From: Ruminococcus sp. | GTDB taxonomy: Bacteria; Bacillota; Clostridia; Oscillospirales; Ruminococcaceae | Length of the DNA stretch: 47,636 nucleotides | Assembly (NCBI GenBank): GCA_015066975.1 | Contig: SVNI01000008.1 | Location: 1-47,636, forward strand | Direction of reading: 5' to 3' | Position numbers and translations under genes: made by a program | In this document: piece after piece, positions 8,491-25,021 of the stretch | How positions within the stretch are numbered: the first letter of the stretch is position 1 | How the letters are laid out: every line of letters begins with the position of its first letter | The notes under the pieces: generated by a model | Seen by the model: the letters and a program-made list of their open reading frames with translations, nothing else | What the model was told of the DNA's origin: nothing | Database searches by the model: none

Positions 8491-8525
8491 ACAAAAAACC
8501 CCTCTCAGATGCAGTACTGAGAGGG
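8491..8525 (-). terminator. terminator of the binding-protein/GGDEF operon
   Basis: Minus strand: CCCTCTCAG/CTGAGAGGG, a perfect 9-bp stem (arms 8525-8517 and 8508-8500), followed by GTTTTTTG, 30 bases after the GGDEF gene's stop codon. Confidence 0.9.
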
Positions 8526-8554
8526 AATCTTTCATGTAATGCCAAAAATTCAGC

Positions 8555-9799
8555 TTACTGAATCTGATACATACGGTTGCCGCCGTCACGCTTTGCCGCA
8601 TGAAGTGCAGAGTCCATCTTCATCAAAAGGGTGTTTACGTCTAAGTTATCGCTGGGCAGATAGTGGTACAGGCTGGAAGAAACGGTAGTCTGTACCGGAA
8701 TATTGGCAACCAGAGTCGGCTGACCAATGCCCTGACGAATCTGTTCGGCAAGCTGCTGTGCCTGTAAGTCAGATACATGCTCATAGAATACCATACAGAA
8801 CTCATTACCGGAAATATTGAACATTTCAGCATATTCGGAATATTCTTCCTTGAGTCGCTCTGCAACAGTGGCAAGATATTCGTCGCCGAATTCATAGCCG
8901 TACATGTCGTTAATCATACGGAAGTTGTCAATATCAAATACGGCAATATTGAACTGTGCGTTGCCGATAAGCTGGGAAAGGCTTTCGTCGAGGGCATATC
9001 TGTTCTTCATACCGGTGAGAATGTTTGTCATAGCGGAGTCCATGAGTTTCTTCTTGGATTTTGTCAGACGGTTGCCGGCTTCGGTGATTTCCTGTTCCTT
9101 CTGCTTGATTTCAATGAGGGAGTTAATCTGTGTTCTGCCGATGAAGTAGAGCGCAATAATAGTCAGAACCAGCACAATAGTCAGAGCACCTTGTGCAGTA
9201 GCACGCCACCATCTTGCTCTTTGTTCATGCGCTTCGCCCTCTTTTGTAGCTACTTTTACAGTAGCTTCCAGCATTTCAGCAGCAGTCAACTGAAGCGGTG
9301 CAAGTTCCTGATTGTAAATGTTCATACCTTCCTCATGGATTACGGAAGCACTCTTTGTCTGGTTGATTTCCATGATTTTTCTCCGATACGCATTGATAGC
9401 ATATTCAGCGTGTTCAAAACGTCTTTTCAGGCTTTCATCATCGTCATGCAAAGCCTTATACTGTTCGGAAAGTTCTGCAATGTTGCTGAAACAACTTGTG
9501 AGGTTTTCAGCGGCTTCTGCTTCTACTCTTTCAGCTTCCGGTGTACCCATAGAAGCAAAGAGTTTAAGTATATTTTCGTTTGCTTCGGTAAAATTATTAC
9601 GAATATCCGAAATAATCTTAATAGATTCAATATTTTCCTGCAATATATCTCTGGTGCTGACATACACTGCATTCTGCACCAGCATGTTAATCAATGTTAC
9701 CACAGCAATGACAACACCAAGGATACCGTACATTCTGCCGACTCTGCGGATAGTTTTGTCTCGCCTTAAACTAAGGTCAAACGCTTTTCTTTTTGCCAT
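8555..9799 (-). CDS. membrane GGDEF protein with extracytoplasmic four-helix sensor domain
   Basis: This is a 414-residue receptor-like protein. Transmembrane helix 1 is at about residues 22-45. An extracytoplasmic all-helical region (about 46-195) resembles the 4HB_MCP ligand-binding domain of chemoreceptors. Helix 2 is at about 200-220, followed by a short coiled coil and a GGDEF domain (about 250-414). The domain keeps FDIDNFRMINDMYGYEFGD, including the first metal Asp and the base-recognition residues, but its signature reads SGNEF instead of GGDEF, so the second metal-site acid is an Asn. Cyclase activity is therefore doubtful. It is the last gene of an operon behind two sugar-binding lipoproteins, which suggests that those proteins deliver the signal to this receptor (inference). 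Confidence 0.88.
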   Translation of the reverse strand: MAKRKAFDLSLRRDKTIRRVGRMYGILGVVIAVVTLINMLVQNAVYVSTRDILQENIESIKIISDIRNNFTEANENILKLFASMGTPEAERVEAEAAENLTSCFSNIAELSEQYKALHDDDESLKRRFEHAEYAINAYRRKIMEINQTKSASVIHEEGMNIYNQELAPLQLTAAEMLEATVKVATKEGEAHEQRARWWRATAQGALTIVLVLTIIALYFIGRTQINSLIEIKQKEQEITEAGNRLTKSKKKLMDSAMTNILTGMKNRYALDESLSQLIGNAQFNIAVFDIDNFRMINDMYGYEFGDEYLATVAERLKEEYSEYAEMFNISGNEFCMVFYEHVSDLQAQQLAEQIRQGIGQPTLVANIPVQTTVSSSLYHYLPSDNLDVNTLLMKMDSALHAAKRDGGNRMYQIQ

Positions 9800-9823
9800 T
9801 TTTAAATTTCTCCTCTCTGAGAA

Positions 9824-10963
9824 TTAATTATTGATGAGGAACTGCACATCATCATTATTGATATTGTCTTTTGTGACTGTGGTTGCGCCGGAGTCTACCA
9901 GAGACGGAATTGGGTCACCGTGTGCTAAATCAATTGCATAGCTGACACCCAGATAGCCCATGTTGTAAGGATTCTGAATAATAGTAGCATCCAGAATATT
10001 CTGGCTCAGGTACATATCTGCGGACTTGCCTTCGTTCTCGAAATAGTCGAAACCTACGATATGCACTTCACCGGGCTGAATCGTACCGTCAGCAATCAAA
10101 TCAGAAACGGCTTCACAAGCACCCCATGCACCCTTACGGTTAGTTGCGAAAATGAGGTCAACGTGATCCTCTTTAATCAGCTTCAGAGCCTGTTCTTTGG
10201 AAACATCCCAATTGCTTTCGCCGTCGAGGACTTCTGCAATTTTGATATTAGCATAAGAAGCAAATTCATCAGAAGTTTGTGCTGTTTCGGTTTCGGCTTC
10301 GATAATATTGCCGTCTGCATCAGTTTCCGTTTCGGCAGGAAGTGAGTTATTCTGCTTGGAGCTTGCACCAGCAGCCATTTCCTGCGGTTTCTGAACATTT
10401 CCGGAAAGCTGGTTGATAAAACCGTCACGGCGTTCGATTGCAGTAGAAGCCGAGCCATGATAGATAATGCCGATAGTACCTTCATTATTCAGCAAAGTAG
10501 CAGCAGTTCGTGCTGCACCTTCGCCGGCATTTTTATTTAATGTGCCGACATAGCTTGCCTTGCCCTCATAAGTAACATCAGAGTCGATTGTAATAATCGG
10601 GATTCCGGCAGCAGTTGCAGAAGCAAGAGCTTCGTTTTCGGATTCCGGGTCGCAGGCAGCGAGAACGATAACATCTACTTTCTGGGAGATTGCCTGATTG
10701 ATAACAGCAATCTGTTGTTCGGCATCTTCTTCCTCAGGGCCCATGCGGATGATATTGACTTCATCACCGAATTCTTCTTGCAGGTTATCGCAGGCTTTCC
10801 ATACTGGATTCCAGTAGTCAGAATTCATTGTCTTTACAATAACAGCAACATCTACCGTTTCTGTATCTGTACTTTGACTTTGACCGCATCCAGTCAGTGG
10901 CATCATAGATACTGCAAGGATACCTGCAACAACGGCTTTTACGATTCTAGATTTTTTTCTCAT
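9824..10963 (-). CDS. sugar-binding lipoprotein (Peripla_BP_4 type) no. 2
   Basis: This 379-residue lipoprotein has signal and lipobox LTGCG (Cys26). The body is a type I periplasmic-binding fold of the ribose/galactose/autoinducer-2 class: VAVIVKTMNSDYWNPVWKAC, then VDVIVLAACDPESENEAL, GIPIITIDSDV and a C-terminal QNPYNMGYLGVSYAIDLAHG. An acidic low-complexity insertion (about residues 200-235, TETDADGNIIEAETET) is unusual and probably forms a surface loop. Its start lies 39 bases after the first binding-protein gene. No ABC permease or ATPase is adjacent, so it may act as a sensor subunit rather than a transporter component. Confidence 0.87.
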   Translation of the reverse strand: MRKKSRIVKAVVAGILAVSMMPLTGCGQSQSTDTETVDVAVIVKTMNSDYWNPVWKACDNLQEEFGDEVNIIRMGPEEEDAEQQIAVINQAISQKVDVIVLAACDPESENEALASATAAGIPIITIDSDVTYEGKASYVGTLNKNAGEGAARTAATLLNNEGTIGIIYHGSASTAIERRDGFINQLSGNVQKPQEMAAGASSKQNNSLPAETETDADGNIIEAETETAQTSDEFASYANIKIAEVLDGESNWDVSKEQALKLIKEDHVDLIFATNRKGAWGACEAVSDLIADGTIQPGEVHIVGFDYFENEGKSADMYLSQNILDATIIQNPYNMGYLGVSYAIDLAHGDPIPSLVDSGATTVTKDNINNDDVQFLINN

Positions 10964-11002
10964 AGCTTAAATAATTCCTCCTAAAAAATCTCATAGCTTT
11001 TT

Positions 11003-12052
11003 TCAATCCGTTACCGGATTTATCAGAAAACGAATATCTTCGTTATTCAGATTCTCATTCGTTACCAGCGTCACGCTTGTAATCATTTCTGACTGGAGTG
11101 AAGCTGTGTCGCCTTTTATGGCAGCATCTGCGTATTTTATGCCAAGGTATCCCATATTATACGGATTCTGTACAATCGTACCGGCCAATGTACCATCCTG
11201 GATATAGGCGACTTCCTTATCAGATGCATTGAAACCGATAACCCTTACTTCTCCGGCTTTTCCCAGTTCTGCAATGGCATCACAGATACCAGTGGTACTA
11301 TTTTCGTTAGTACCATAAATCAGCTTGATTTCCGGATGATTTTTCAGAATTGCGGTTGTCTGAAGCTTGGCAGTTTCCAAATCGTTATCACAGTACTGTG
11401 TAGCCACAATATGATATTTGGAATCAGAAACTTTTGCATTTTTCTTTTCACCAGTGCCGACCTCGACAGGCACATCAAGCAGCACTTCCTGCCGTGAGAG
11501 TTCCTCTTTGAAGCCGGAAATACGCTCAATTGCAGTCTGAGACTTCTCGACATGTCCGACAATGGCGATTTCGCCGCCCTCGGGAACTTCTTCCATAGCA
11601 GCTCTGGCAGCGACCGCACCGGCAGCGGTATTATCCGAGCCGATATAAGCAAGTCTTCCTTCATAGCTGACATCCGAGTCGATAGTAATCACAGGAATGC
11701 CTTTAGAAACTGCCTTGTCCAAGGTTGTGTTAAGTGCATCTACATCATTTGGAGCAATAATAATTGCATCCGCATTTTGAGAGATTGCCTTCTCCACTAA
11801 TTTAATCTGTTCGCCGAGCATAGTATCATTAGCGGTAGCCTGATAAGAAACTGCATAGTTCAGTTCATTTCCGCCGTCTTCTGCTCCTTTTTTTACAGCA
11901 TCCCAGAATTGTACGCCCTGTGCTTTGCAGATAACAGCGATTTCTCCGTTTTTTTCTTCCTGCTGGGAACAGCCGGCCAAAGAAATGCATAATGACAGTG
12001 CTGCCACCGCGAGTGCTGTCTTACGGAGGCTTTGATACAAATTCTTTCTCAT
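11003..12052 (-). CDS. sugar-binding lipoprotein (Peripla_BP_4 type) no. 1
   Basis: This 349-residue lipoprotein starts MRKNLYQSLRK, with lipobox SLAGC. I chose ATG 12052-12050 because AGGAGGA lies 8 bases upstream; a longer in-frame extension to 12187 crosses the promoter and has no ribosome site. The mature part is a type I periplasmic-binding fold (IAVICKAQGVQFWDAVKKGA, ADAIIIAPNDVDALN, GIPVITIDSDV, QNPYNMGYLGIKYADAAI) and is clearly paralogous to the next gene. The shared motifs suggest related ligands, probably monosaccharides or a small signalling sugar. It is the first gene of the binding-protein/binding-protein/GGDEF operon. Confidence 0.87.
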   Translation of the reverse strand: MRKNLYQSLRKTALAVAALSLCISLAGCSQQEEKNGEIAVICKAQGVQFWDAVKKGAEDGGNELNYAVSYQATANDTMLGEQIKLVEKAISQNADAIIIAPNDVDALNTTLDKAVSKGIPVITIDSDVSYEGRLAYIGSDNTAAGAVAARAAMEEVPEGGEIAIVGHVEKSQTAIERISGFKEELSRQEVLLDVPVEVGTGEKKNAKVSDSKYHIVATQYCDNDLETAKLQTTAILKNHPEIKLIYGTNENSTTGICDAIAELGKAGEVRVIGFNASDKEVAYIQDGTLAGTIVQNPYNMGYLGIKYADAAIKGDTASLQSEMITSVTLVTNENLNNEDIRFLINPVTD

Positions 12053-12158
12053 ATCCGAAATCCTCCTTTCTTTTTCTCTCAAAAAATTAAGTAAAAATAA
12101 GAAATACAAATAAAAATCCACACAAATACTTTTCATTGTGCAGTCATATTCATTGTCT

Positions 12159-12187
12159 ATTATAACATATTTCTCATAGAAATACAA
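12159..12187 (-). promoter_or_regulatory. promoter of the binding-protein/GGDEF operon
   Basis: Minus strand: TTGTAT (12187-12182), a 17-base spacer, and TATAAT (12164-12159), with the transcription start about 100 bases before the first gene. It is divergent from the signalling-operon promoter 150 bases away. Confidence 0.8.
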
Positions 12188-12335
12188 GTGCTAAATATGA
12201 CGAAAATCAAATAAGAATTCTGTCTATTTTTTCCCCTGAAACTTTCAGGCAAATTTTCTTTGGTGCGATATGCAATATTTTAGTTCCGAATTTTTGTGAG
12301 AAACGGAAAATTTCAGAAAATCAATCCAGAATCTA
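12188..12335. other. intergenic region between the two divergent signalling promoters
   Basis: This AT-rich, gene-free stretch holds a small palindrome CCTGAAACTTTCAGG at about 12235-12249. It could be an operator shared by both promoters, but nothing in it matches a known regulator site. Confidence 0.35.
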
Positions 12336-12364
12336 TTGACAATTCGGTGAACACATGCTATAAT
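12336..12364 (+). promoter_or_regulatory. perfect consensus promoter of the 12-gene signalling operon
   Basis: TTGACA (12336-12341), a 17-base spacer ending in TGC, and TATAAT (12359-12364). Both hexamers match the consensus exactly and there is an extended -10 TG. The leader to the first ATG is about 100 bases and contains a GGATTCCA/TGGAGTCC hairpin at roughly 12413-12434 (one G-U pair). Confidence 0.9.
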
Positions 12365-12470
12365 TTTAATAAATGTGTATTAAATATACAGCGAACAGGC
12401 CTAGTGCCTTTCTGGATTCCATTTTTCTGGAGTCCTGCTCTGCAAAAAACTGAATGGGAGGATATATCTT

Positions 12471-13589
12471 ATGGTCAATGTAGCAGGCTTTGAAAACACA
12501 ATCGCTGTCAGTCAGAAACTCAAAGGCATGGTTCAGCAGTTCGGAGACGATATTCTGAACAATCCTGACAAGTTCGTTTCTCTGATGAATGACTTTATTC
12601 CGGAGTATGAAAAAGAACGCCGTCTTCTGAAAAATGTAGTCAAGAGTGATGTGCTGACAAAAATGAAAAGAAGCGATAATCAGAATATCGCCATTATGAA
12701 GTCAAAAGAATATATGATGAACGAAATGTTCCTGTCAGAAGGTGCAGTAGAGTTTGTCATGGTATGCTTTACGTATCTGCTTGACTGGAATTATGAAACC
12801 ACAATGCCGGAACAGGGAGCTATGGCTGCTCCTGCACAGGCATTCCAGCCACAGCCGCAGTACACTGCTGCACCGAATCCGTATGGTGGCGCGCCGATGG
12901 CAGGTTTTGCACCGCCCCCGATACAGCAGCAGCCAGTTATTCCGCAGCCGGTCATCCCGCAGCCTGCCGCCGCACCGCAGATTCAGGCCGCTGCTGCCGC
13001 TGCTTCTGCACCGGTTTCCGCACAGCCGGAAGAAAATCCGGTTATCTTTGCAGCATCTGATGCAGCTCGTTCCAGACTGCGCGGCAATGTCAAAGTAGCT
13101 CCCGGCTATACTACACTGGACAATTTCTGCTTCGACGGTTTCAGCTTTATGAAATCTATCGAACTTCCGGCAACACTGATTACTATCGGCGACTATGCAT
13201 TCTCTGAGTGCAAGCGTCTGAAGACCATCACAATTCCGCCAAGTGTACGCATCATCCGTCAGGGCGCATTCAGCTCCTGCGGAAAGCTGACGAGAATCAA
13301 TATTCCTTCCGGTGTGACAGAAATTGCAGACAATACGTTTGAATTCTGCCATAATCTGGAAATTGTGGAACTGCCCAACACGCTCCAGAGCATTGGAAAC
13401 GGTGCATTCCAGGGCTGTGAAAGTCTGAGGAAGCTCTTTATTCCAGAGAGCGTGAAGCATATTGCAGATGATGCATTCAAACAGTGCGCTTACTTAACTG
13501 TCAAGTGCTATGACAAATCTTATGCATACAAATTCTGTTCAGAAAATGGCATCAAGACAGAACTTATCAGCAAGGGCGGTTTGTTCTGA
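12471..13589 (+). CDS. cytosolic BspA-type leucine-rich-repeat protein, first gene of signalling operon
   Basis: The protein has 372 residues and no signal peptide. Residues 1 to about 110 form an all-helical domain with ILNNPDKFVSLMNDFIPEYE and ERRLLKNVV. This resembles the short helical domains found N-terminal to other bacterial signalling and chaperone-like modules, but I cannot name it. An Ala/Pro/Gln-rich linker follows (about 115-190), then five BspA-type (LRR_5) repeats (about 195-360), each with the IxxIGDYAFSxCxxLxxIxIP pattern. The start has a GGGAGGA site 8 bases upstream. BspA repeats are usually secreted, so a cytosolic one opening a kinase/phosphatase operon suggests a protein-interaction adaptor. 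Confidence 0.85.
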   Translation: MVNVAGFENTIAVSQKLKGMVQQFGDDILNNPDKFVSLMNDFIPEYEKERRLLKNVVKSDVLTKMKRSDNQNIAIMKSKEYMMNEMFLSEGAVEFVMVCFTYLLDWNYETTMPEQGAMAAPAQAFQPQPQYTAAPNPYGGAPMAGFAPPPIQQQPVIPQPVIPQPAAAPQIQAAAAAASAPVSAQPEENPVIFAASDAARSRLRGNVKVAPGYTTLDNFCFDGFSFMKSIELPATLITIGDYAFSECKRLKTITIPPSVRIIRQGAFSSCGKLTRINIPSGVTEIADNTFEFCHNLEIVELPNTLQSIGNGAFQGCESLRKLFIPESVKHIADDAFKQCAYLTVKCYDKSYAYKFCSENGIKTELISKGGLF

Positions 13590-13625
13590 TTGATTCTGAT
13601 TAAAACTTTTCAGCTTGAATCAATC
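13588..13625 (+). other. intra-operon hairpin
   Basis: GATTGATT/AATCAATC, an 8-bp stem overlapping the stop codon of the leucine-rich gene. There is no T-run after it, so it is more likely an mRNA-processing or stability element than a terminator. Confidence 0.4.
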
Positions 13626-13682
13626 TGATAAAAATCACTGTGCTGTTTATAATTTTAGTTTCAGAAAGGGATGAGTTCAAAT

Positions 13683-15044
13683 ATGGTTGAACTGCAAATC
13701 GGGCAGTATGTCGAAATGGAATACGGCGGTGCTGCCAGAGTCAAGAAAGTTCTCGGTCAAGGCGGTCAGGGTATTGTCTATCTGGTGGAATTCAACAATA
13801 TGGACTACGCGCTGAAATGGTATGACATTGACAAGATGCGTAATCCGAAGGCATTCCGTCAGAACATTGCAAGCAATATCAACGACGGCGCACCGAGTAA
13901 AAAATTCCTGTGGCCGAAATATCTGACCAAACAGATTCCCGGAACGGATACGTTTGGTTATCTGATGGATTTGCGTCCGCAGGGCTACGATTCATTTGTA
14001 GACATTCTCAACACTTACAAGCTGGATGTTGACCCGCTTACCGGCAAGGCCATCAAAGTACCTGTACAGTTCAAGAGTCTGTATGCCATGGTAACAGCAG
14101 TCATCAACATTGTCAATGCATTCCGTCAGCTTCACAGAGCCGGAAAGAGCTATCAGGATTTGAATGACGGTGGTTTCTTTATCAATATCAAAACCGGTGA
14201 TATTCTGGTCTGTGACTGCGACAATATCGCACCGGACGGCAGCAACTTTGGTATCGGCGGCAAGCCGGGCTATATGGCACCGGAAGTTGTTCGCGGACTC
14301 AAGAAGCCTGACGTTCAGACCGATAAATATTCTCTTGCAGTCGTTCTGTTCAAACTCCTGTTCAGAGGCGACCCAATGGAAGGCGAAAAAGTAGTAAAGG
14401 ACATTTGTCTGACAGAAACTTCCGAGCTGAAACATTACGGCTCAAATGCGGTTTTTGTCTATGACCCGAATGATACTTCCAACAGACCTGTGCGTGGCAT
14501 TCATGACAATGTTATCAAATTCTGGAAAATCTATCCGCCGTATGTGCGTGAAGCATTTATCCATTCGTTTACAGTCGGTATTTCCGACCCGAACAAGAGA
14601 ATTATCGAAAACGAATGGCAGAGATTATTCATCCGCCTGCGTTCTGAAATTGTCTCCTGCACCTGTGGCAGAACCAATTTCACGACCATGTTCCGCAAGG
14701 CCGAGGACAACCCCAATTTCTTCATGTGTCCCAGATGCGGAAACTACATCGCAAGCCTCCAGTTCAACAACCGGGACTACCGTGTGCCGCTGTACCTGGG
14801 CTACAAATTCTATGCCTGTGAAACTGTCAAAAATTCTGACGACTTTGAAACCGTGACCGGTGAAGTAGTAGAAAACAAGCTTCGCCCCGGCATGATGGGT
14901 GTCAAGAACAGTTCCGGCAAATCGTGGCGTGTCAAGATGCCTGACGGCAACTTCTACGCTGCACCGTCCGGTAAGGGCTTCCCGTTATGGGAAAAGCTGG
15001 AAATCGACTTTGGTGACGGCATTACTGCCAAAATCGAAGATTAA
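13683..15044 (+). CDS. atypical Ser/Thr protein kinase with C-terminal zinc ribbon (TerY-P triad kinase)
   Basis: This cytosolic kinase has 453 residues from ATG 13683. An ATG at 13671 directly abuts the AAAGGG site and leaves no spacing, so I preferred the second. The glycine loop is GQGGQGIVYLV, and the ATP Lys sits in YALKWYD. The catalytic loop is unusual (SYQDLNDGGFF): the Asp is kept but HRD has become YQD. The metal motif is VCDCDNIA in place of DFG, followed by GYMAPEVVRG. This combination is characteristic of the kinases in TerY-P triads. After about residue 325 a CxC...CPRC zinc ribbon follows, then a C-terminal beta-rich domain. The next two genes encode the VWA and PP2C partners. 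Confidence 0.9.
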   Translation: MVELQIGQYVEMEYGGAARVKKVLGQGGQGIVYLVEFNNMDYALKWYDIDKMRNPKAFRQNIASNINDGAPSKKFLWPKYLTKQIPGTDTFGYLMDLRPQGYDSFVDILNTYKLDVDPLTGKAIKVPVQFKSLYAMVTAVINIVNAFRQLHRAGKSYQDLNDGGFFINIKTGDILVCDCDNIAPDGSNFGIGGKPGYMAPEVVRGLKKPDVQTDKYSLAVVLFKLLFRGDPMEGEKVVKDICLTETSELKHYGSNAVFVYDPNDTSNRPVRGIHDNVIKFWKIYPPYVREAFIHSFTVGISDPNKRIIENEWQRLFIRLRSEIVSCTCGRTNFTTMFRKAEDNPNFFMCPRCGNYIASLQFNNRDYRVPLYLGYKFYACETVKNSDDFETVTGEVVENKLRPGMMGVKNSSGKSWRVKMPDGNFYAAPSGKGFPLWEKLEIDFGDGITAKIED

Positions 15045-15083
15045 TTCTCCGGCAAAAAATAAGCATAAGAAAAGGTGAAAACT

Positions 15084-15950
15084 ATGAATGAAGAAATGGA
15101 AAACAACCTGGACTTCGACGACGACCTCGGCGGCGGCGGTTTCGGCGGCGGTGGTTTCGGCGACGGGCTTGATGATTTTGATGATTTCATGAACTTCGAT
15201 GATGATGACCCGCTGAACGCAACGGGTGTATCCCGAAAAAGTCTGGTCATCTTCTTCCTGATTGACACTTCCGGCAGTATGAAAGGCACTAAAATGGGCG
15301 AACTTAACGCTGTTATGGAAGAGCTGATTCCGGAAATCCGGCGCGTCGGTGAGGCAGATACCGATGTCAAAATTGCGGTTCTGACATTCTCTACTTCTGT
15401 GATGTGGATGTACTCAGAACCTATCTCGATTGAGGAATTTGAATGGACAAGACTCCGTGCAGATGGTGTCACCAGCATGGGTGCGGCATTCAAGGAACTG
15501 AATATCAGAATGTCAAGAAACAGCTTCCTGAATTCCCCGTCCCTGTCCTTTGCGCCTGTTATCTTTCTGATGACAGACGGCTATCCCTCAGACGATTATA
15601 AAGAAGGTCTGGCAGCACTTCAGCAGAACAGCTGGTACAAATACGGTCTGAAAACTGCTCTTGGTATTGGCAAAGAAGCAGACGACGATATGCTTGCAGA
15701 ATTCACAGGCACAAAAGACACTGTAGTTCATGCCTATTCCGGCGGACAGCTTGCACATCTGATTAAAGTGATTGCTGTAACGTCCTCACAGATAGGCAGT
15801 AAGAGTATGACGCTCTCTGACGATTCCGGCCATGAACTGGGCATGGAAGACGTATTTGAAACCAAGCAGAAAATGCTGGGTCAGCAGATTCAGGAAATCA
15901 TCAAATCCGAAGGCTATGGCGACAATGTTCCCTTTGATGCCGGATGGTAA
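15084..15950 (+). CDS. von Willebrand factor A (TerY-like) protein
   Basis: This 288-residue cytosolic protein begins with an acidic, Gly-rich segment (about residues 1-45, including GGGGFGGGGFGDG and many Asp residues). A VWA domain follows with an intact metal-ion-dependent adhesion site: DTSGSMKG, a Thr in DGVTSMGAA, and the Asp of LMTDGYPSDD. I chose ATG 15084 for its spacing from AAAGGTG; an in-frame GTG at 15075 lies within that site. TerY-type VWA proteins are proposed to scaffold metal-dependent complexes with a kinase and a PP2C phosphatase, and both flank it here. There are no TerC or TerD genes in the window. Confidence 0.92.
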   Translation: MNEEMENNLDFDDDLGGGGFGGGGFGDGLDDFDDFMNFDDDDPLNATGVSRKSLVIFFLIDTSGSMKGTKMGELNAVMEELIPEIRRVGEADTDVKIAVLTFSTSVMWMYSEPISIEEFEWTRLRADGVTSMGAAFKELNIRMSRNSFLNSPSLSFAPVIFLMTDGYPSDDYKEGLAALQQNSWYKYGLKTALGIGKEADDDMLAEFTGTKDTVVHAYSGGQLAHLIKVIAVTSSQIGSKSMTLSDDSGHELGMEDVFETKQKMLGQQIQEIIKSEGYGDNVPFDAGW

Positions 15951-15988
15951 GATGCAAATGGTAACGAAAGGGAAAGGAGGTGTTCGCT

Positions 15989-16945: not shown

Positions 16946-16976
16946 CTGAGTTCCGCTCAAAATTGAGGATATTACT

Positions 16977-17900
16977 ATGAAAGAGAATCAAGAGAAGAAT
17001 AAGGGAACACATATTTTAATTCTGGTTATCTGCATTGCTGTTTATATAGTATTTATGCTTTTGACAGGACCTATTCAAATTCCTCAGCTCAGCCTGTTTA
17101 ATGGTGTATTTGCACAGATTAACGTACTGATGGCTATCATCATGGTAGTGTCAAATCGCAAGCGCGGTTTTATCTCTGCCGTTTCGCTGAATGCAATTTC
17201 CTGTGTCCTGACACTGATGCGCTATCTTCAGGAGGTTGAATCAAGAGCACTGCCGGGGGTCTTTGTTCCGATAGTCTCTATTGTTTCCCTGTCCATCATT
17301 TATGGAAATCTGTACCAGAACCAAGCGATGCAGGAAGAACTGAATGAACAGTATGAAAAAATCATGGATTCCAACAGAATCATGCAGGAAAAAGACGACG
17401 CACTGAAAATGCTTGCATACAGTGACCGTCTGACCGGAATGCAGAATATGCAGTACTTCCGTGAACAAATGGAAGAAGCTGTGAAACTGGAAATGCCTTT
17501 CACTATGATTTATATTGATATCGATAACTTCAAGGGTATCAACGATACATTTGGCCCAAAAACTGGTGATACTGCACTGATTGCCTATGCAGAACGCCTT
17601 TCCAGCTACTGTGGCCGCAAATATATCTGTGCCAGAACCAATGGTGACGAATTCGGTGTTATTTTAACAGGAGAACAGACTGAAGCTGATGTTCTGAATA
17701 TTATTGAACAGCTCCGCCGTCTATTTGGTGAGCAAATCACTGTACAGGGGGCAAAGCTTTCTGTTACTGCCAGCTACGGTATTGTTTCCCATCCGCGTGA
17801 TGGCAGAAATGATGAAACACTTCTGGACAGTGCCATTATGGCAGTATACAATGCCAAGGCAAACGGCAAAGACAGAGCCTGCTTTTTCAGCCAGGGTTAA
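16977..17900 (+). CDS. GGDEF membrane protein, paralogue 1 of 7 (NGDEF)
   Basis: The protein has 307 residues. Four predicted transmembrane helices (about residues 12-30, 42-60, 65-83 and 93-110) form a small N-terminal membrane module. A coiled coil (about 115-140, EQYEKIMDSNRIMQEKDD) leads into a GGDEF domain (about 145-305). The domain has SDRLTGMQN, YIDIDNFKGINDTFGPKTGD and the signature RTNGDEFGV. The first Gly is Asn, but the D-E-F part and the metal Asp are intact, so diguanylate-cyclase or related activity is plausible. No RxxD inhibitory site precedes the motif. The His usual after the YG of the family is Pro here, a change shared by all seven paralogues. Confidence 0.9.
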   Translation: MKENQEKNKGTHILILVICIAVYIVFMLLTGPIQIPQLSLFNGVFAQINVLMAIIMVVSNRKRGFISAVSLNAISCVLTLMRYLQEVESRALPGVFVPIVSIVSLSIIYGNLYQNQAMQEELNEQYEKIMDSNRIMQEKDDALKMLAYSDRLTGMQNMQYFREQMEEAVKLEMPFTMIYIDIDNFKGINDTFGPKTGDTALIAYAERLSSYCGRKYICARTNGDEFGVILTGEQTEADVLNIIEQLRRLFGEQITVQGAKLSVTASYGIVSHPRDGRNDETLLDSAIMAVYNAKANGKDRACFFSQG

Positions 17901-17940
17901 GCCGTTCTGCAACATCCGCAAACACATGGTTTTTATTTTT

Positions 17941-17974
17941 CGCAGTGTCCGGCTGTTTTATGCCGGATACTGCG
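17941..17974 (+). other. strong intra-operon hairpin
   Basis: CGCAGTGTCCGGC/GCCGGATACTGCG forms a 13-bp stem with one G-U pair and an 8-base loop, in the 105-base gap between GGDEF paralogues 1 and 2. It lacks a following T-run, so it may be a stability, processing or attenuation element that sets the ratio of triad to GGDEF expression. Confidence 0.6.
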
Positions 17975-18005
17975 TTACAGGATATTTACGGGAGGAGAGA
18001 TACAA

Positions 18006-18989
18006 TTGCATCAGGAGAAAAATAACGTGCGGAACATTGCTGTTTTAGTAATTGGAATTATTCTGTATGTATTAATTATTATACTTCAGGGTCCGCTAAG
18101 AGAAGTTATATCAAGTTTTATAGGTGTACTGACCGGACTGCAAGTTCTCATTGCAACCATGATTGTCATTACTAATTATAAGAGAGGCTTTATTGTTTCA
18201 GTGGTTTTATGCGTTCTCAGCATGATGGGTGCAGTGATTGCCCTGTTGCGGTCACATTCCATCGGGTCGCTTCCGGGCATACTTTTACCGATTATCACCA
18301 TTATCACGACTGCAATTATACTGGCATACATGAATCTCAGCAAAGCACAGGCAGCAGAACTTTCTGAGCAGTATGAAAAAATCATGGATTCCAACAGAAT
18401 CATGCACGAACAAGAAGAAGCCCTTCGTATGCTGGCTTACACTGACCGTATGACGGGAATAAAGAATATCCAGTATTTCCTGGAAAAGATAGACGAACTT
18501 ATCAAAGAAAACGCTAAATTCATGGTTATCTATATTGATATCGACAATTTCAAGGGAATCAATGATTCATTCGGCCCCAGAACCGGTGATGCCGCTCTTT
18601 CTACTTACGCAAAGCGTTTTTCTGATTTTTGCGGAAACAAGTACATCTATGCAAGAACGACTGGTGATGAATTTGCTTTTATTCTGACAGGAGAACAGGC
18701 AGAAACAGAAACTCTCAGCATTATTGAAAACCTCCGCAAGCTGTTCAATGAGCCGTTTACAGTACAGGGTACACAGATTTCTACTACTGCAAGCTATGGC
18801 ATTGCAACTTATCCTCTTGACGGCAGAACTTCGGAAATTTTGATAGACAGTGCCATTATGGCAGTTTACAATGCCAAAGCCAATGGCAAGGACAGACCTT
18901 ACTTCTTCTCTAAAATTACAGCAAATCAGTCTGTTTATGTCAATCGGTCTGTATATATTCCTGAATCACGCTATTATCCTACAGAGTAA
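18006..18989 (+). CDS. GGDEF membrane protein, paralogue 2 of 7 (TGDEF)
   Basis: The protein has 327 residues and the same architecture as the preceding gene: four N-terminal helices, a coiled coil (SEQYEKIMDSNRIMHEQEE) and a GGDEF domain. The start codon is TTG with a strong GGGAGGAG site 8 bases upstream. Key motifs are TDRMTGIKN, YIDIDNFKGINDSFGPRTGD and the signature RTTGDEFAF, so the catalytic DEF is intact with Thr for the first Gly. It has a unique 25-residue polar tail (SVYVNRSVYIPESRYY) not found in the other copies. A 105-base gap with a strong hairpin separates it from paralogue 1. Confidence 0.88.
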   Translation: MHQEKNNVRNIAVLVIGIILYVLIIILQGPLREVISSFIGVLTGLQVLIATMIVITNYKRGFIVSVVLCVLSMMGAVIALLRSHSIGSLPGILLPIITIITTAIILAYMNLSKAQAAELSEQYEKIMDSNRIMHEQEEALRMLAYTDRMTGIKNIQYFLEKIDELIKENAKFMVIYIDIDNFKGINDSFGPRTGDAALSTYAKRFSDFCGNKYIYARTTGDEFAFILTGEQAETETLSIIENLRKLFNEPFTVQGTQISTTASYGIATYPLDGRTSEILIDSAIMAVYNAKANGKDRPYFFSKITANQSVYVNRSVYIPESRYYPTE

Positions 18990-19058
18990 TAACAGCATTT
19001 CAACAGTTGAGTTTTTTGATGTATTATCAATTATTTCAATGAGAAGAAGGGTTTTATT

Positions 19059-19970
19059 ATGAAAGAGAAGAAAACAGCAACACAAATTGTAATTCTGGTA
19101 ATCGGAATTATTTTGTATCTGATTGTATGGCTGCTTATGGGTCCGATGCTGACAGATGCCATGCGGCCTTATGTTGGTATCGGCTCAGAAATACAGATTG
19201 TCATCTGTACTGTGCTGGTTGTAACAAACCGAAAAGCAGGCTTTATTGCAAGCTGTATTCTGAATGTATTCGGAATCTTTAATGCTTTTCTTGGATACAT
19301 ACACGGCCAAACCTCAGCTATTACAGGCGTAGTCATTGATATTATTGCTGTTGTGACAATGTATATTATTTACTACTTCTTGGAAAGAAGCGAAAATCAG
19401 CGTACAGAACTTTCCAAGCAGTATGAACAGATTATGGATGCCAACCGCAAACTAAGCGAAAAAGATGAAGCACTCCAAACATTTGCTTATACTGATATTC
19501 TGACAGGCATGCACAATCTGCGCTATTTCCGTGAACAGATGGAAGAAGCTATCAGGATTCAGTCCAAATTTTCGCTGATTTATATTGATATTGATAATTT
19601 TAAAGGAGTCAACGATACATTCGGCCCTAAAACCGGAGACTCCGCTTTGGTTGCCTATGCAAAACGCATTTCTGACTACTGCGGAAACAGGTATGTCTGC
19701 GCAAGAACCGCCGGTGACGAATTCGGAATTCTTCTTATTGGAGAATATACGGAAGCAGATATCCTGAACATGATTGAACAGTTCCGCCGTTTATTTGGTG
19801 AACCTATCACTGTACAGGGCGCAAATCTTTCTATGACTGCCAGCTATGGTGTTGCAACGCATCCGCGTGACGGCAGAAATTCCGAAACGCTGCTTGACAG
19901 CATTATTATGGCCACTTATACCGCTAAGGCGAACGGCAAGGACAGACCCTGCTTCTTCAGCCAGGCATAA
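19059..19970 (+). CDS. GGDEF membrane protein, paralogue 3 of 7 (AGDEF)
   Basis: The protein has 303 residues, with four N-terminal membrane helices, a coiled coil (SKQYEQIMDANRKLSEKDE) and a GGDEF domain. Motifs are TDILTGMHN, YIDIDNFKGVNDTFGPKTGD and signature RTAGDEFGI. AGDEF is a substitution tolerated in known active diguanylate cyclases, so this copy is one of the better candidates for activity. It ends with the family's conserved ANGKDRPCFFSQ. It is preceded by a GAAGGG ribosome site and a 69-base gap. Confidence 0.9.
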   Translation: MKEKKTATQIVILVIGIILYLIVWLLMGPMLTDAMRPYVGIGSEIQIVICTVLVVTNRKAGFIASCILNVFGIFNAFLGYIHGQTSAITGVVIDIIAVVTMYIIYYFLERSENQRTELSKQYEQIMDANRKLSEKDEALQTFAYTDILTGMHNLRYFREQMEEAIRIQSKFSLIYIDIDNFKGVNDTFGPKTGDSALVAYAKRISDYCGNRYVCARTAGDEFGILLIGEYTEADILNMIEQFRRLFGEPITVQGANLSMTASYGVATHPRDGRNSETLLDSIIMATYTAKANGKDRPCFFSQA

Positions 19971-20002
19971 GAAATAAAAAATAATTAAGGATTGAGGTTT
20001 TT

Positions 20003-20926
20003 ATGAACAGTAAAGAAAATGAGCAGAAAAATCTGCTGATACTTGTAGTTTGTATTATTATCAACATTCTGACGTATATTCTTGCACGAGGTGTAATAGC
20101 ACCGCAGATTTTCAGACCGTTCTCCGGTGTGCTTGCCCAGATTGGACTTAGCTGTTCCGTGATTGCGGTACTTACCAATAAAAAACGCGGATTCGTTTCA
20201 TTTATGGTTGTGTGGGGCATTGTTATCGGGTCAACACTTATTGGTTTGATAAGTTCTTCATTTAATCTTGCACTTTTGCCCAGTATTGGTCTTGCCGTTT
20301 TATCCATCATTATTGATTATATCATTTATTCCAATATCCTGCAAAGCGATACCATGCAAAAAGAACTGAACGTGCAGAACAGCAAACTGATGGAATCCAA
20401 CAAGCTGATGGAAGAAAAAGACGAATCACTTAGAATTCTTGCTTATAAAGACCAGCTCACAGGCATGAACAACAAGACATATTTCTGTGAACAGATAGAC
20501 GAAGCTATCAAGCAGAAGAAACCGTTCACTGTCGTTTATTCTGACCTGGACAACTTCAAAGGCATCAATGATAGCTTTGGGCCGGAAATCGGTGATTCTG
20601 TTGTTCTTGCTTATGCTGAACGCTTTTCATCATTCTGCGGAAATAAATACCCCTGTGCCAGAACCAGCGGTGACGACTTCGCTCTGCTGATTACTGGTGA
20701 ACATTCTGAATCTGAACTGACGAATATCATAGAACAGCTTCGCAGCACAATGACTTCCCCAATGAACATTCGTGGCAGAGCTCTCGCAATTACTGCCAGT
20801 TATGGTGTTGCTTCCTATTCGAATGCCGGAGGCGACACAGCCACTTTGCTCAATAACGCGATTATTTCAGTATACAGAGCTAAGGCCGGCGGCAAGAACA
20901 GAATCAATTTCTATAGCAATTCATGA
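20003..20926 (+). CDS. GGDEF membrane protein, paralogue 4 of 7 (SGDDF)
   Basis: The protein has 307 residues and the same four-helix/coiled-coil/GGDEF plan. The domain shows KDQLTGMNN, YSDLDNFKGINDSFGPEIGD and signature RTSGDDFAL. Here the Glu of the signature has become Asp (DDF), which shortens a side chain needed for metal binding in canonical cyclases, so activity is uncertain. The C-terminus (KAGGKNRINFYSNS) has diverged from the ANGKDRPCFFSQ ending of its neighbours. A GAGG ribosome site precedes the start, and there are 32 bases between genes. Confidence 0.9.
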   Translation: MNSKENEQKNLLILVVCIIINILTYILARGVIAPQIFRPFSGVLAQIGLSCSVIAVLTNKKRGFVSFMVVWGIVIGSTLIGLISSSFNLALLPSIGLAVLSIIIDYIIYSNILQSDTMQKELNVQNSKLMESNKLMEEKDESLRILAYKDQLTGMNNKTYFCEQIDEAIKQKKPFTVVYSDLDNFKGINDSFGPEIGDSVVLAYAERFSSFCGNKYPCARTSGDDFALLITGEHSESELTNIIEQLRSTMTSPMNIRGRALAITASYGVASYSNAGGDTATLLNNAIISVYRAKAGGKNRINFYSNS

Positions 20927-20957
20927 ACAGAAAAATAAATAAGGACTGAGGTATTTT

Positions 20958-21875
20958 ATGAACACGAAAGAAAATAATCAAAAGAATCTTGTGATTCTTA
21001 TTGTTTGTACAATTGTAAGTGCGATTGGCTTTCTTATGACAGGTCCGTTTTTTACAGACAGTATTAGACCGCTGGCAGGACTGCTTGCGCAGACATCCAT
21101 TCTTGCGATTGTCATTATGGTAATTACCAATAAAAAAAGAGGATTTTATACAGCACTCGGCATCACGGCCATTCTCTTTCTCATGGTACTTTGCATGATA
21201 ATTTTTGCTCATAACATGGCAATTTTTGCAAACCTGATTATAGCAGTTGTTACTTCTATTTTAGTATGCATTCTCTATAATTATCTGAAAAAAAATGATG
21301 ACCTGCATCAGGAACTGAACCAGCAGTATGAACAGCTTATGGATACCAACAGAGAACTGGAAAGAAAAGATACTATGTTAAGAGAACTTGCTTATAAAGA
21401 CCAGTTGACAGGACTGTATAACAAAGCATATTTTTCTGAACAGATGGACGAAGCTATCCGTCAGAATGTGCCTTTTACAGTAATCTATGCTGATATGGAC
21501 AATTTCAAAGTTGTGGATGATACATTTGGACCAGAAGTCGGCGACTCTGTTCTTGTTGCTTATGCGCAAAGATTTTCTGCCTACTGCGGCAAAAGATACA
21601 TCTGTGCAAGAACCAGCGGTGATGATTTCGCCATGCTTCTGACAGGGCAACAGAATCAAGCAGAAATTCTGAATGTTGTGGAACAGCTTCGCCGTACACT
21701 GGGTGAACCACTCAACATACAGGGGCAGGTACTTTCCATTACATCCAGTTATGGCATTGCTTCCTATCCGCAGGACAGCAGAAACGCTGCCAACCTGCTG
21801 AATTGTTCTGTGATGGCTGTTTACCGTGCAAAGGCAAACGGAAAAGACAGGCCGTGTTTCTTCAGCCAGACATAA
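20958..21875 (+). CDS. GGDEF membrane protein, paralogue 5 of 7 (SGDDF)
   Basis: The protein has 305 residues: four N-terminal helices, a coiled coil (NQQYEQLMDTNRELERKDT) and a GGDEF domain with KDQLTGLYN, YADMDNFKVVDDTFGPEVGD and signature RTSGDDFAM. Besides the DDF change, the family Asn in the I/VND segment is Asp. It is closest in sequence to paralogue 4 (shared KDQLTG and SGDDF), which suggests these two arose by a recent duplication. Its start follows a GAGG ribosome site 31 bases after paralogue 4. Confidence 0.9.
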   Translation: MNTKENNQKNLVILIVCTIVSAIGFLMTGPFFTDSIRPLAGLLAQTSILAIVIMVITNKKRGFYTALGITAILFLMVLCMIIFAHNMAIFANLIIAVVTSILVCILYNYLKKNDDLHQELNQQYEQLMDTNRELERKDTMLRELAYKDQLTGLYNKAYFSEQMDEAIRQNVPFTVIYADMDNFKVVDDTFGPEVGDSVLVAYAQRFSAYCGKRYICARTSGDDFAMLLTGQQNQAEILNVVEQLRRTLGEPLNIQGQVLSITSSYGIASYPQDSRNAANLLNCSVMAVYRAKANGKDRPCFFSQT

Positions 21876-21903
21876 GAATAATGATATTGAGGTTGATAGT
21901 AAA

Positions 21904-22800
21904 ATGAAAAATAAAACATTGCAGACTGTAATTTTAGTGATTTGCAGCATATTGTTTGTGGGAGTTTTCGTCATGTCCCTTTCCACAAGCGTTACCATGT
22001 ACAGAGGTTTGATTTCAGAAGTACAGGTTGCTCTTTGTGTTATGATAATTCTTACCAACCCCAACAGAGCAGGCTATATCAGCAGTATCGTTTTGAATGC
22101 CTTTTCACTCATCTATAAACTTGTAGATATGATTCATTCCCACAGAATTTCTATCGGATTTGTAATTTATATCACAACAATTATTTTAATATCTATTCTT
22201 TATTTTTACATGAAAACAAGCCAGAGTCAGCATGACGAACTCCAGCAGCAGTATGAAGAACTGATAACTACCAAACAGATCCTTCAGGAAAAAGATGACA
22301 TATTGAGAACGCTTGCCTATGACGATAAGCAGACAGGGATGCGTAATGCACATTATATGCACCTGAAAATAAATGAAGCCATTCAGGCAGGCAAACCGTT
22401 TCAGATAATTTATTTTGATATTGATAATTTTAAACAGATTGATGATATTCACGGGCCAAAAGCCGGAGACCAGGCGATTATGATTTATGCAGAGCGTCTC
22501 TGTACTGCTTTCCAGAATCGTTATCTCTGTACTCGTATGAAGAGTGATAAATTTGCTGTATTTCTTGACGGCGAACGCTCGGAAGAAGAACTTTCTGCTG
22601 TGATTGAACAGTTCCGTGCTGTCATCAACAAACCTATAGCTCTCCAGATGCAGAGTTATCATTTATCTGCCAGCTATGGTATTGTTTCCTTCCCCCGTGA
22701 CGGTGGTACAGCAGATACACTGCTTAGACATGCCATCATGGCAGTATACAGAGCCAAAGGCAGCGGAAAAAATACTTCCTGTTTCTTCAGTCGTGCGTAA
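21904..22800 (+). CDS. GGDEF-fold membrane protein, paralogue 6 of 7 (signature lost: KSDKF)
   Basis: The protein has 298 residues from ATG 21904, which is preceded by GAGGTTGA. A longer in-frame start at 21826 lies inside the preceding gene. The architecture is the same, but this is the most decayed copy: DDKQTGMRN in place of the D-x-LTG motif, YFDIDNFKQIDDIHGPKAGD, and RMKSDKFAV in place of GGDEF. The signature Gly-Gly and the Glu are both gone, so it should be catalytically dead and is more likely a nucleotide-binding or heterodimer partner. The reading frame is intact and the structural core is kept, which argues for selection rather than a pseudogene. Confidence 0.87.
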   Translation: MKNKTLQTVILVICSILFVGVFVMSLSTSVTMYRGLISEVQVALCVMIILTNPNRAGYISSIVLNAFSLIYKLVDMIHSHRISIGFVIYITTIILISILYFYMKTSQSQHDELQQQYEELITTKQILQEKDDILRTLAYDDKQTGMRNAHYMHLKINEAIQAGKPFQIIYFDIDNFKQIDDIHGPKAGDQAIMIYAERLCTAFQNRYLCTRMKSDKFAVFLDGERSEEELSAVIEQFRAVINKPIALQMQSYHLSASYGIVSFPRDGGTADTLLRHAIMAVYRAKGSGKNTSCFFSRA

Positions 22801-22832
22801 ATAAAATTTAAAATATCGAGGTAATTATTTTT

Positions 22833-23735
22833 ATGAAAGAAAAAAACAAAAGCCTGAATATGCCTGTTCTGGTGATTGGAATCTTAATCTTTCTGGCTTT
22901 AGCTACTGCTATACAGCAGATTCCTCAGAGTGTGCAGGGAATTATCACACAGATAGAAGTAATTGTTGCCACAATTATTGTAATCACAAACAAGAAAATC
23001 GGCATTATTACTGCTATGGTACTTTTTGCTTATGTTATCTTTGGTGCTGCGCTCAGTCTGCAAGCCGGAAATAAAATGGGAATTGTCGCGATACTGACTT
23101 CTGTTGTCACAATTATCATCTTAAACCTTATTTATTTCTTCCTTCACAAAAACGAACAGCAACACGCACAGCTCCTGAAACAATATGAAGAAATGATGGA
23201 TTCCAACCGCCTGATGCAGGAAAAAGACGAGGCCTTGCAGACACTTGCATACCAGGACGAAATGACCGATATGCATAATTTTGTCTATTTCCGTGAACAG
23301 ATTGAAAATGCCATCCGGCAGAATACAGACTTTGCCCTGATTTATATGGATTTAGATAATTTCAAGGCGGTCAATGACAAGTTTGGTCCCGAAGTCGGTG
23401 ACGAGGCTCTGAAAATCTATGCCAGCAGACTCAAAGCCTACTGCGGAACAAAATATCTCTGTGCCAGAACAAGCGGTGATGACTTCGCCCTTTTGCTGAG
23501 CGGAACGCCTGCACAAGCAGAGATTCTGCATTTGGTCGAACAGCTTCGGAAAGTTCTGGGCGAACCTGTTTCAGCACAGGGAGTCAGCAATATCACCACT
23601 ACGGCCAGCTATGGCATTGTGGTATCTCCCCGTGATGGCAAAGACACAGATACTCTGCTTGACAATGCCATCTTTGCGGTTTACAATGCCAAAGCCAACG
23701 GCAAGGACAGACCATGTTTCTTCAGTCAAATTTAA
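22833..23735 (+). CDS. GGDEF membrane protein, paralogue 7 of 7 (SGDDF)
   Basis: The protein has 300 residues: four membrane helices, a coiled coil (LKQYEEMMDSNRLMQEKDE) and a GGDEF domain with QDEMTDMHN (the usual LTG is MTD), YMDLDNFKAVNDKFGPEVGD and signature RTSGDDFAL. It ends with ANGKDRPCFFSQ like copies 1, 3 and 5. A GAGG ribosome site precedes the start, 33 bases after the previous gene. The deaminase-fold gene follows 32 bases later. Confidence 0.9.
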   Translation: MKEKNKSLNMPVLVIGILIFLALATAIQQIPQSVQGIITQIEVIVATIIVITNKKIGIITAMVLFAYVIFGAALSLQAGNKMGIVAILTSVVTIIILNLIYFFLHKNEQQHAQLLKQYEEMMDSNRLMQEKDEALQTLAYQDEMTDMHNFVYFREQIENAIRQNTDFALIYMDLDNFKAVNDKFGPEVGDEALKIYASRLKAYCGTKYLCARTSGDDFALLLSGTPAQAEILHLVEQLRKVLGEPVSAQGVSNITTTASYGIVVSPRDGKDTDTLLDNAIFAVYNAKANGKDRPCFFSQI

Positions 23736-23767
23736 CTCAGCTTTATTAAGGAAAGGCAGGTAATTTT

Positions 23768-25021
23768 ATGGAAACCAAAGAATTTTACAATCTCGCTGTA
23801 AAATTAATGGAGGATATTAAAATCAAAGAACCTCAGCTTGTATCAGGCAGTGATTCTGAACTCTGTGTGCTGGTAACAGCCGAAAAACAAGCAGTTTACG
23901 CCGGTGTGACAAGTGTGAAGGTGAACGCAGGACAGATTATGCGTTCCTGTCCGGAATTCAATGCGATTATGACAATGATTCCGGAAGGTGAAACTCTGGT
24001 AGAAAAACTGCTGACAGTTTCTTTCAGTACGCTGGAAGTCAGCCAGCCTTGCGCAGAATGCCTGAAGCTTCTGTATCGTGTCAATAAAGACAACAAAGAT
24101 ACAGAAGTATTTGTGGCACAGGATAAGACAACCAAAGCTGCTGAACTGCTTGCACCCGATACTGTAGCAGATACTACACCAGTCACTGTTGGAGAAGCTG
24201 CACCTGCTCCAGTAGAAGTTTCTGCGGAAGCAGCCGGATTTGCAGCAGATGCACCAGCCGCTGCACCGCCGCCGCCTTCTATGAATAAAGCACCGAAGAA
24301 TCCGCTTGCTTCTGCAAATGACTTCAGTGGTTTTTCTGCTGATGGAGATTTTGGATTTGAAGCTGCTGAACCTCCGGAAGAACCGGATGACCAGAATAAC
24401 CAGCAGCCGCAGGCACAGAGTGCGCCGTTCCAGCCTGCTCCCGGAATGCCTGGTGCTCCTCAGACAATGGGTGCACAGCCGTTTCCGCAGGCACAGCCTT
24501 ACGGTTATGCACAGCAGCCGCAGTATGGTTATGCACAGCAGCCGCAGTACGGCTACGCACAGCAACCGCAGTATGGCTACGCACAACAGCCACAGTCGCA
24601 GTACGGTTATGCACAGCAGCCAGGTGCTTACGGCCAGCCGCAAAGCATGTACATGCGCCAGAGCGTTTACATGCAGCCCGGCCAGCAGCCGCAGAGTGTC
24701 TACATGCAGCCCGGTCAGCAGCCGCAGAGCGTTTATATGCAGCCTGGTCAGCAGCCACAGAGTGTCTATGTCAGCCAGCCTGCTGCTCACAGTCAGCAGT
24801 TTTCCGCTTATCAGCAGTCAAACTACTATTCTCAGACTGGTACTGCTCCTGCAAAGAGTGACGGTTCTACATTCAAGAATCGCCTTGCCAACTTCATGGA
24901 TGACGGTGATGATGCTTCTTCCAGCTCCAATAACAGTGTAGATGAAGAAGAACTCATGAAACAGGCAAAAGAAAGAAAAAGAATGGCCAAGCTTGATAAT
25001 AGTTTCAATAGAAACAAGTAA
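23768..25021 (+). CDS. cytidine-deaminase-fold protein with Gln/Tyr/Pro-rich repeat tail
   Basis: This 417-residue cytosolic protein ends the signalling operon. Residues 1 to about 135 resemble cytidine deaminase: QAVYAGVTSVKVNAG, then RSCPEFNAI (zinc-ligand Cys61 and proton-shuttle Glu63 in place of the usual CAE), then SQPCAECLKLL (zinc-ligand Cys95 and Cys98) and a terminal AAELLAPD like the ELLP of free enzymes. The 34-residue spacing between the first and second Cys is close to the 33 I recall for B. subtilis cytidine deaminase. After an Ala/Pro/Glu linker come about five YGYAQQPQ repeats and four QSVYMQPGQQP repeats. A charged C-terminal segment (about 370-417) closes the protein. The substrate is unknown; the family assignment is inferred from motifs. 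Confidence 0.75.
   Translation: METKEFYNLAVKLMEDIKIKEPQLVSGSDSELCVLVTAEKQAVYAGVTSVKVNAGQIMRSCPEFNAIMTMIPEGETLVEKLLTVSFSTLEVSQPCAECLKLLYRVNKDNKDTEVFVAQDKTTKAAELLAPDTVADTTPVTVGEAAPAPVEVSAEAAGFAADAPAAAPPPPSMNKAPKNPLASANDFSGFSADGDFGFEAAEPPEEPDDQNNQQPQAQSAPFQPAPGMPGAPQTMGAQPFPQAQPYGYAQQPQYGYAQQPQYGYAQQPQYGYAQQPQSQYGYAQQPGAYGQPQSMYMRQSVYMQPGQQPQSVYMQPGQQPQSVYMQPGQQPQSVYVSQPAAHSQQFSAYQQSNYYSQTGTAPAKSDGSTFKNRLANFMDDGDDASSSSNNSVDEEELMKQAKERKRMAKLDNSFNRNK
24495..24775 (+). repeat. coding repeats (YGYAQQPQ and QSVYMQPGQQP)
   Basis: Two blocks of near-identical tandem repeats lie inside the deaminase-fold gene: about 24-base units at roughly 24500-24625, then 33-base units at roughly 24650-24775. Synonymous differences between copies show they are under protein-level selection. 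Confidence 0.85.

Follow-up and report, generated by a model that had tools for sequence, protein, structure and literature searches.

A TerY-P-like kinase/VWA/PP2C triad with GGDEF and deaminase-fold genes at a putative signalling locus of Ruminococcus

Organisation of the locus

A 47,636-nucleotide stretch of DNA from Ruminococcus sp., which is contig C163 of a genome of 2.6 Mb and is called the window here, carries two divergent operons. The minus-strand operon encodes two binding lipoproteins and a membrane GGDEF protein; the plus-strand operon encodes a leucine-rich repeat (LRR) protein, a triad of kinase, VWA protein and PP2C phosphatase, seven further GGDEF proteins and a deaminase-fold protein. 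Judged by its gene content, the locus is a variant of the TerY-P system with added GGDEF and deaminase-fold genes. All of these genes had been named in an earlier reading of the window (the sequence-only reading), and every one is present. The same reading put the divergent region at about 420 bases, and it measures 418 when the ATG at 12052 is used. Two starts in the list of open reading frames, 12187 (TTG, lipoprotein 2) and 21826 (GTG, array GGDEF 6), lie too far upstream. The features are as follows.

8499-8526, minus strand: strong intrinsic-terminator-like hairpin at the end of the minus operon
8555-9799, minus strand: membrane protein with a 4HB_MCP_1 sensor and a degenerate GGDEF domain (SGNEF), two transmembrane helices
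9824-10963, minus strand: sugar-type periplasmic-binding lipoprotein 1, Peripla_BP_4, lipobox LTGC
11003-12052, minus strand: sugar-type periplasmic-binding lipoprotein 2, Peripla_BP_4, lipobox LAGC, probable ATG at 12052
12053-12470, no strand: divergent control region, 418 bases
12336-12364, plus strand: promoter TTGACA-17-TATAAT with extended -10 TG
12471-13589, plus strand: helical N-terminal domain and BspA-type LRR_5 protein, putative adaptor
13671-15044, plus strand: Ser/Thr kinase-like protein with C-terminal zinc ribbon and FHA-like beta domain
15075-15950, plus strand: VWA protein, metal-ion-dependent adhesion site (MIDAS) residues D64, S66, S68, T133 and D168 invariant
15980-16945, plus strand: PP2C phosphatase, metal-site aspartates D43, D157, D213 and D260/D261 invariant
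16977-17900, plus strand: array GGDEF 1 (NGDEF), N-terminal multi-transmembrane region
18006-18989, plus strand: array GGDEF 2 (TGDEF)
19059-19970, plus strand: array GGDEF 3 (AGDEF)
20003-20926, plus strand: array GGDEF 4 (SGDDF)
20958-21875, plus strand: array GGDEF 5 (SGDDF)
21904-22800, plus strand: array GGDEF 6 (KSDKF), probable ATG at 21904
22833-23735, plus strand: array GGDEF 7 (SGDDF)
23768-25021, plus strand: deaminase-fold protein of 417 amino acids, with CDA domain, Q/P/Y-rich tail and basic C-terminus

How might the plus operon be transcribed? The promoter upstream of the LRR gene is of the sigma-A type and scores 12/12, and in 75 of 80 loci the LRR gene has a comparable site upstream, with a score of 10/12 or higher. 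Gaps between the genes of the operon span about 28-105 bases, and no strong plus-strand terminator was found across 12471-25021; a single transcript would cover the whole operon. A promoter-like site scoring 11/12 lies within the last GGDEF gene (23659-23687) and could give the deaminase gene a separate start. No known RNA was found in the window at Rfam thresholds. Blocks of the divergent region within 12210-12345 (CTTTGGTGCGATATGCAATATTT; TTTTTGTGAGAAACGGAAAA...TCAGAAAA) are kept across the genus and could be operators.

Conservation of gene order

A kinase search of 198 genomes of the family gave 17 with at least 66% identity, and a scan of GTDB contigs turned up 215 relatives; mapping covered the best 80. 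In the GTDB contigs, the close relatives come from rumen and gut and carry the label Ruminococcus sp. or Oscillospiraceae. The order LRR protein, kinase, VWA protein, PP2C, a variable number of GGDEF genes and deaminase-fold protein holds in 82 complete mapped loci, nearly all of them Ruminococcus or Oscillospiraceae. The sequence-only reading had staked its single-system view on such conservation, which goes far beyond chance.

It had also made the tandem GGDEF array a defining feature, and this part of the claim has to be given up. Most of the 82 loci have either no GGDEF gene (48 loci) or one (33 loci) between PP2C and deaminase, while the window has seven. Genus-wide, the copy number per locus is 0, 1, 2, 4, 5 or 7; a second genome (G793, locus L288) likewise has seven copies, and in loci L073 and L074 two GGDEF genes on the opposite strand adjoin the deaminase gene. 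The array as a conserved unit is ruled out by this variation, and it represents a lineage-specific expansion. The array copies of the window group with those of its nearest relatives in a single clade (99 in the Shimodaira-Hasegawa-like approximate likelihood ratio test), which argues that the array arose by duplication in the window's lineage. In the triad tree, loci with GGDEF genes occur on all deep branches; this fits a single GGDEF gene in the ancestor followed by losses, in a tree that cannot formally separate gain from loss. Among the genomes sampled, the GGDEF-deaminase addition to the triad was found only within the host's family. More distant triads occur in other Clostridia, some with a helical-domain or LRR protein, and no deaminase or GGDEF gene was detected within the short flanks examined.

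Does the minus-strand operon belong to the same system? The sequence-only reading joined the two operons, and comparison bears this out: the lipoprotein/4HB-GGDEF pair lies beside the triad in 47 of the 63 loci with enough upstream sequence, divergently in 45 and on the same strand in two (L065 and L113). Close to the binding proteins, the window shows no ABC (ATP-binding cassette) permease or ATPase, so sensing fits better than uptake.

The triad and its rate of evolution

TerY-P combines a TerY-like VWA protein and PP2C with a kinase that carries a fused zinc ribbon; it was described by Anantharaman et al. 2012 and has been hypothesised to work as a metal-sensing, phosphorylation-dependent switch (PMC11090510). 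The triad of the window agrees with this definition in all three proteins, as the sequence-only reading had proposed. The VWA protein matches PF00092 (E=1e-8), and its MIDAS residues are invariant in 17 sequences; the phosphatase matches PP2C_2 (PF13672, E=1.2e-38), again with invariant metal-site aspartates. The kinase matches Pkinase (E=7.8e-11), and the CxC...CxxC cysteines of its C-terminal ribbon (C330, C332, C353 and C356) are invariant, with no formal match of the ribbon to any zinc-ribbon profile. The kinase C-terminus is modelled as this ribbon plus a beta-sandwich that has FHA domains among its best structural matches (probability 1.00); because E=0.1, the FHA-like assignment is only suggestive. 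The LRR protein of the window lacks an N-terminal zinc ribbon that is present in most orthologues, and its N-terminal helical domain matched no Pfam family.

The ratio of nonsynonymous to synonymous substitution rates (dN/dS) was computed between the window and relatives in the same genus. It is 0.002-0.028 for kinase, VWA protein and PP2C, 0.06-0.12 for the LRR protein, 0.10-0.11 for the deaminase-fold protein, 0.08-0.26 for the binding proteins and the 4HB protein, and 0.13-0.29 for the GGDEF proteins. The GGDEF, deaminase-fold and binding proteins thus change 10-30 times faster than the triad. Even the KSDKF copy, array GGDEF 6, has a dN/dS of 0.27 against its counterpart at locus L085. On these ratios the triad, at about 0.01, is under extreme purifying selection and nearly frozen, and the sensors and outputs diversify while still under purifying selection, the KSDKF copy included. 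Recent transfer as the cause of the near-identical kinases is ruled out, since dS is about 0.4-4 while dN is tiny.

Are the GGDEF proteins active cyclases?

The array proteins begin with 3-6 hydrophobic stretches and carry, in order, the motifs NGDEF, TGDEF, AGDEF, SGDDF, SGDDF, KSDKF and SGDDF. The first glycine is replaced in all seven copies, the glutamate of DEF is kept in three, and GH has become GP in all seven; the metal aspartate is kept. The full signature of an active cyclase (GG[DE]EF, metal aspartate and GHxxGD) is absent from every copy, and no RxxD inhibitory site appears in their alignment. In the 4HB-GGDEF family, 32 of 52 orthologues have TGNEF and 40 of 52 have [TSA]GNEF, with SGNEF in the window. 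The GGDEF proteins of some species lack the metal aspartate altogether (NLDDF).

First-glycine variants are active in some known cyclases, so array copies 1-3 are possible enzymes. Copy 6 is very unlikely to be a cyclase. The sequence-only reading expected cyclic-nucleotide output or binding; with motifs this degenerate, synthesis of cyclic dinucleotides by the window array is doubtful. A search for the riboswitch RF01051 carries no information, because its control stayed silent.

The deaminase-fold protein and a second deaminase/GGDEF pair

The deaminase fold claimed for the last gene of the operon is real. The protein matches NCBIfam TIGR01354 (E=4.6e-5), and its AlphaFold model (mean predicted local distance difference test score 92) has cytidine and blasticidin-S deaminases as top Foldseek matches, with E values around 1e-6, among them the cytidine deaminase 6kw6 (E=2.6e-6). 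The zinc site ([HC]-x-E...PCxxC) is intact in the window as C61-P-E63 and P-C95-A-E-C98. A long Q/P/Y-rich tail follows, ending in a conserved basic C-terminus.

A shorter deaminase paralogue (about 190-290 amino acids) with intact HxE...PCxxC was found among the deaminase matches. It is followed on the same strand by a membrane GGDEF protein of 505-550 amino acids in all of the 23 loci, spread over 18 genomes (for example L183:3775-6069, L184:6475-8683 and loci L232-L250), whereas a GGDEF neighbour was seen at none of 15 other cytidine-deaminase-domain genes examined; the counts for this pair are raw, with shared ancestry uncorrected. The GGDEF domain of the L183 copy matches PF00990 (E=8.6e-15). 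The motif of the partner is mostly GSDEF, and its first metal aspartate is replaced (FNIS...). Its extracytoplasmic part looks Cache-like by eye, but the one copy scanned against Pfam has no Cache match. The stand-alone pair is absent from the window's genome; 17 of the 18 genomes that have it also carry the triad kinase.

Because the stand-alone pair recurs in all 23 loci, coupling of a deaminase fold to GGDEF proteins is recurrent. The pair provides independent support, suggesting that the two kinds of protein act together, and the recurrence suggests an undescribed bacterial signalling partnership. Literature searches returned nothing directly on the combination of triad, GGDEF and deaminase or on deaminase-fold/GGDEF pairing. 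The pairing offers a concrete lead to the role of degenerate GGDEF proteins.

Neighbouring genes

The deaminase gene of the window is followed at 25118-25969 (plus strand) by a gene for a 283-amino-acid protein with an N-terminal hydrophobic segment, which matches no Pfam family; the nearest relatives keep a counterpart in the same place, at 83-84% identity. At 26039-28612 (plus strand) lies a gene for an 857-amino-acid protein, conserved in the genus at 70-83% identity, in which a tetracycline-protection/EF-G-like GTPase is joined to a C-terminal YacP/Rae1-type NYN domain; that is, a ribosome-binding GTPase joined to a relative of an A-site mRNA endonuclease. In many species, genes for a ferredoxin/iron-hydrogenase-like Fe-S protein and a DivIVA-like coiled-coil protein (L132:2247-3923 and L132:3993-5090, both minus strand) lie side by side near the system, outside the operon. 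At L123:3963-8741 (plus strand), genes for a DUF2201 VWA protein, a large LRR protein and a MoxR-like AAA ATPase stand directly upstream of the LRR-kinase operon; judged from gene sizes, L071 and L146 have the same upstream set.

A model of the system and its rivals

What might such a locus do? The reading that we prefer, and regard as about evenly poised between right and wrong, is a signalling system of Ruminococcus that has a phospho-switch of the TerY-P type at its base, an envelope sensor that evolves fast, and GGDEF and deaminase-fold proteins as its output. A ligand-loaded lipoprotein would act on the 4HB-GGDEF protein. Kinase and PP2C would together fix the phosphorylation state of the LRR protein and of the deaminase's long disordered tail; the FHA-like domain and the VWA protein may be what reads this state. 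The GGDEF proteins of this genome would mostly not be active cyclases; they would bind guanine nucleotides or serve as scaffolds, and would control or localise the deaminase-fold protein. In the window's lineage the GGDEF gene was probably duplicated in tandem up to seven times and then diversified. Ligand sensing and phospho-control are both steps that we infer from the genes. Of the single-system view of the sequence-only reading, the joined operons, the triad, the deaminase fold and the gene order stand; the array as core does not, and cyclase output is doubtful.

Several observations weigh against the preferred reading. Only 39 of 79 non-redundant loci keep the zinc site intact; with the site lost in about half of the orthologues, catalysis cannot be universal. 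An intact site goes with the presence of GGDEF genes (28 of 35 loci with them, 11 of 44 without; naive Fisher p=1.3e-6), but as co-evolution this fails a phylogenetic sign test, which is not significant over 6 independent changes. Of 63 loci, 16 have no lipoprotein/4HB pair, and the adjacency counts are raw, uncorrected for relatedness. The single-copy GGDEF genes of many relatives have the canonical D..GH..GD..GGDEF and could encode true cyclases.

This last point favours a conventional input cluster for cyclic di-guanosine monophosphate (c-di-GMP), in which the GGDEF proteins are phospho-controlled diguanylate cyclases, c-di-GMP is what the system puts out and the deaminase is incidental. 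The DEF part kept by NGDEF, TGDEF and AGDEF and a genome-wide count of 30 GGDEF and 10 EAL domains agree with it. We nevertheless consider it unlikely: first glycine and GH histidine are gone from all seven window copies and the glutamate from four, RxxD is absent from the array, the 4HB protein is of the GNEF type, NLDDF species have no metal aspartate, and no PilZ domain was found in the genome. Nor does the deaminase look incidental, given that deaminase genes also stand paired with GGDEF genes at other loci. An anti-phage or conflict system is somewhat less probable still. The deaminase would be a nucleotide or nucleic-acid effector of a TerY-P-like triad with variable, fast-evolving effectors, and the degenerate GGDEF proteins its sensors or decoys. 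TerY-P and TerY-P-like triads do accompany restriction and defence systems (PMC11090510), and the accessory genes evolve fast, with 0-7 GGDEF copies, yet the core hardly varies and is retained widely across the genus. No defence genes stand among the window neighbours, PADLOC yields only short kinase-domain matches, and no sign of mobility was seen, no formal test for it having been made. Least probable of the rivals is an accident in which an unrelated binding-protein/4HB-GGDEF sensor shares its promoter region with the kinase operon. The loci without the pair would fit, but its frequent adjacency, and its staying by the triad despite the flip in L065 and L113, would not.

A bolder form of the signalling reading, which we think improbable, would place these GGDEF proteins past cyclase chemistry: they would sense nucleotides and so regulate a zinc deaminase dedicated to them. 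The two would form a nucleotide-signalling module, either as a stand-alone pair of membrane GGDEF protein and deaminase or within a TerY-P switch, and the substrate or product of this module would be an unrecognised signal.

Comparison with known systems

The array and 4HB proteins share the domain family (GGDEF, PF00990) and the N-terminal membrane sensor layout of diguanylate cyclases, but their active-site motifs are degenerate. The deaminase-fold protein shares fold and, in the window, the C-x-E...PCxxC zinc residues with cytidine and blasticidin-S deaminases (TIGR01354, PF00383). It differs from them in falling below family cut-offs, in its long Q/P/Y-rich tail and GGDEF neighbours, and in the loss of the zinc site in many orthologues. 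An actinobacterial set, in which a kinase with a zinc ribbon and a beta-strand-rich domain is encoded next to PP2C and a stand-alone vWA (PMC7159879), resembles the triad; its neighbours are GAP1-N2 GTPases, however, and none was recognised at the window locus.

The closest likeness is to the TerY-P triad itself: a MIDAS VWA protein, PP2C and a Ser/Thr kinase with a C-terminal zinc ribbon in one operon. In place of restriction, ter or DNA-processing neighbours, none of which was recognised in the window, there are LRR_5, GGDEF and cytidine-deaminase-fold proteins. The TerD genes of this genome lie on other contigs (C28 and C26), with a TerD cluster at C28:7088-10802, apart from the triad. Most discussion of TerY-P triads so far has concerned tellurite stress, restriction and phage defence; here a nearly invariant triad of the TerY-P type, tied to proteins of the second-messenger type, would form the core of a signalling locus in many Ruminococcus species of the gut and rumen.

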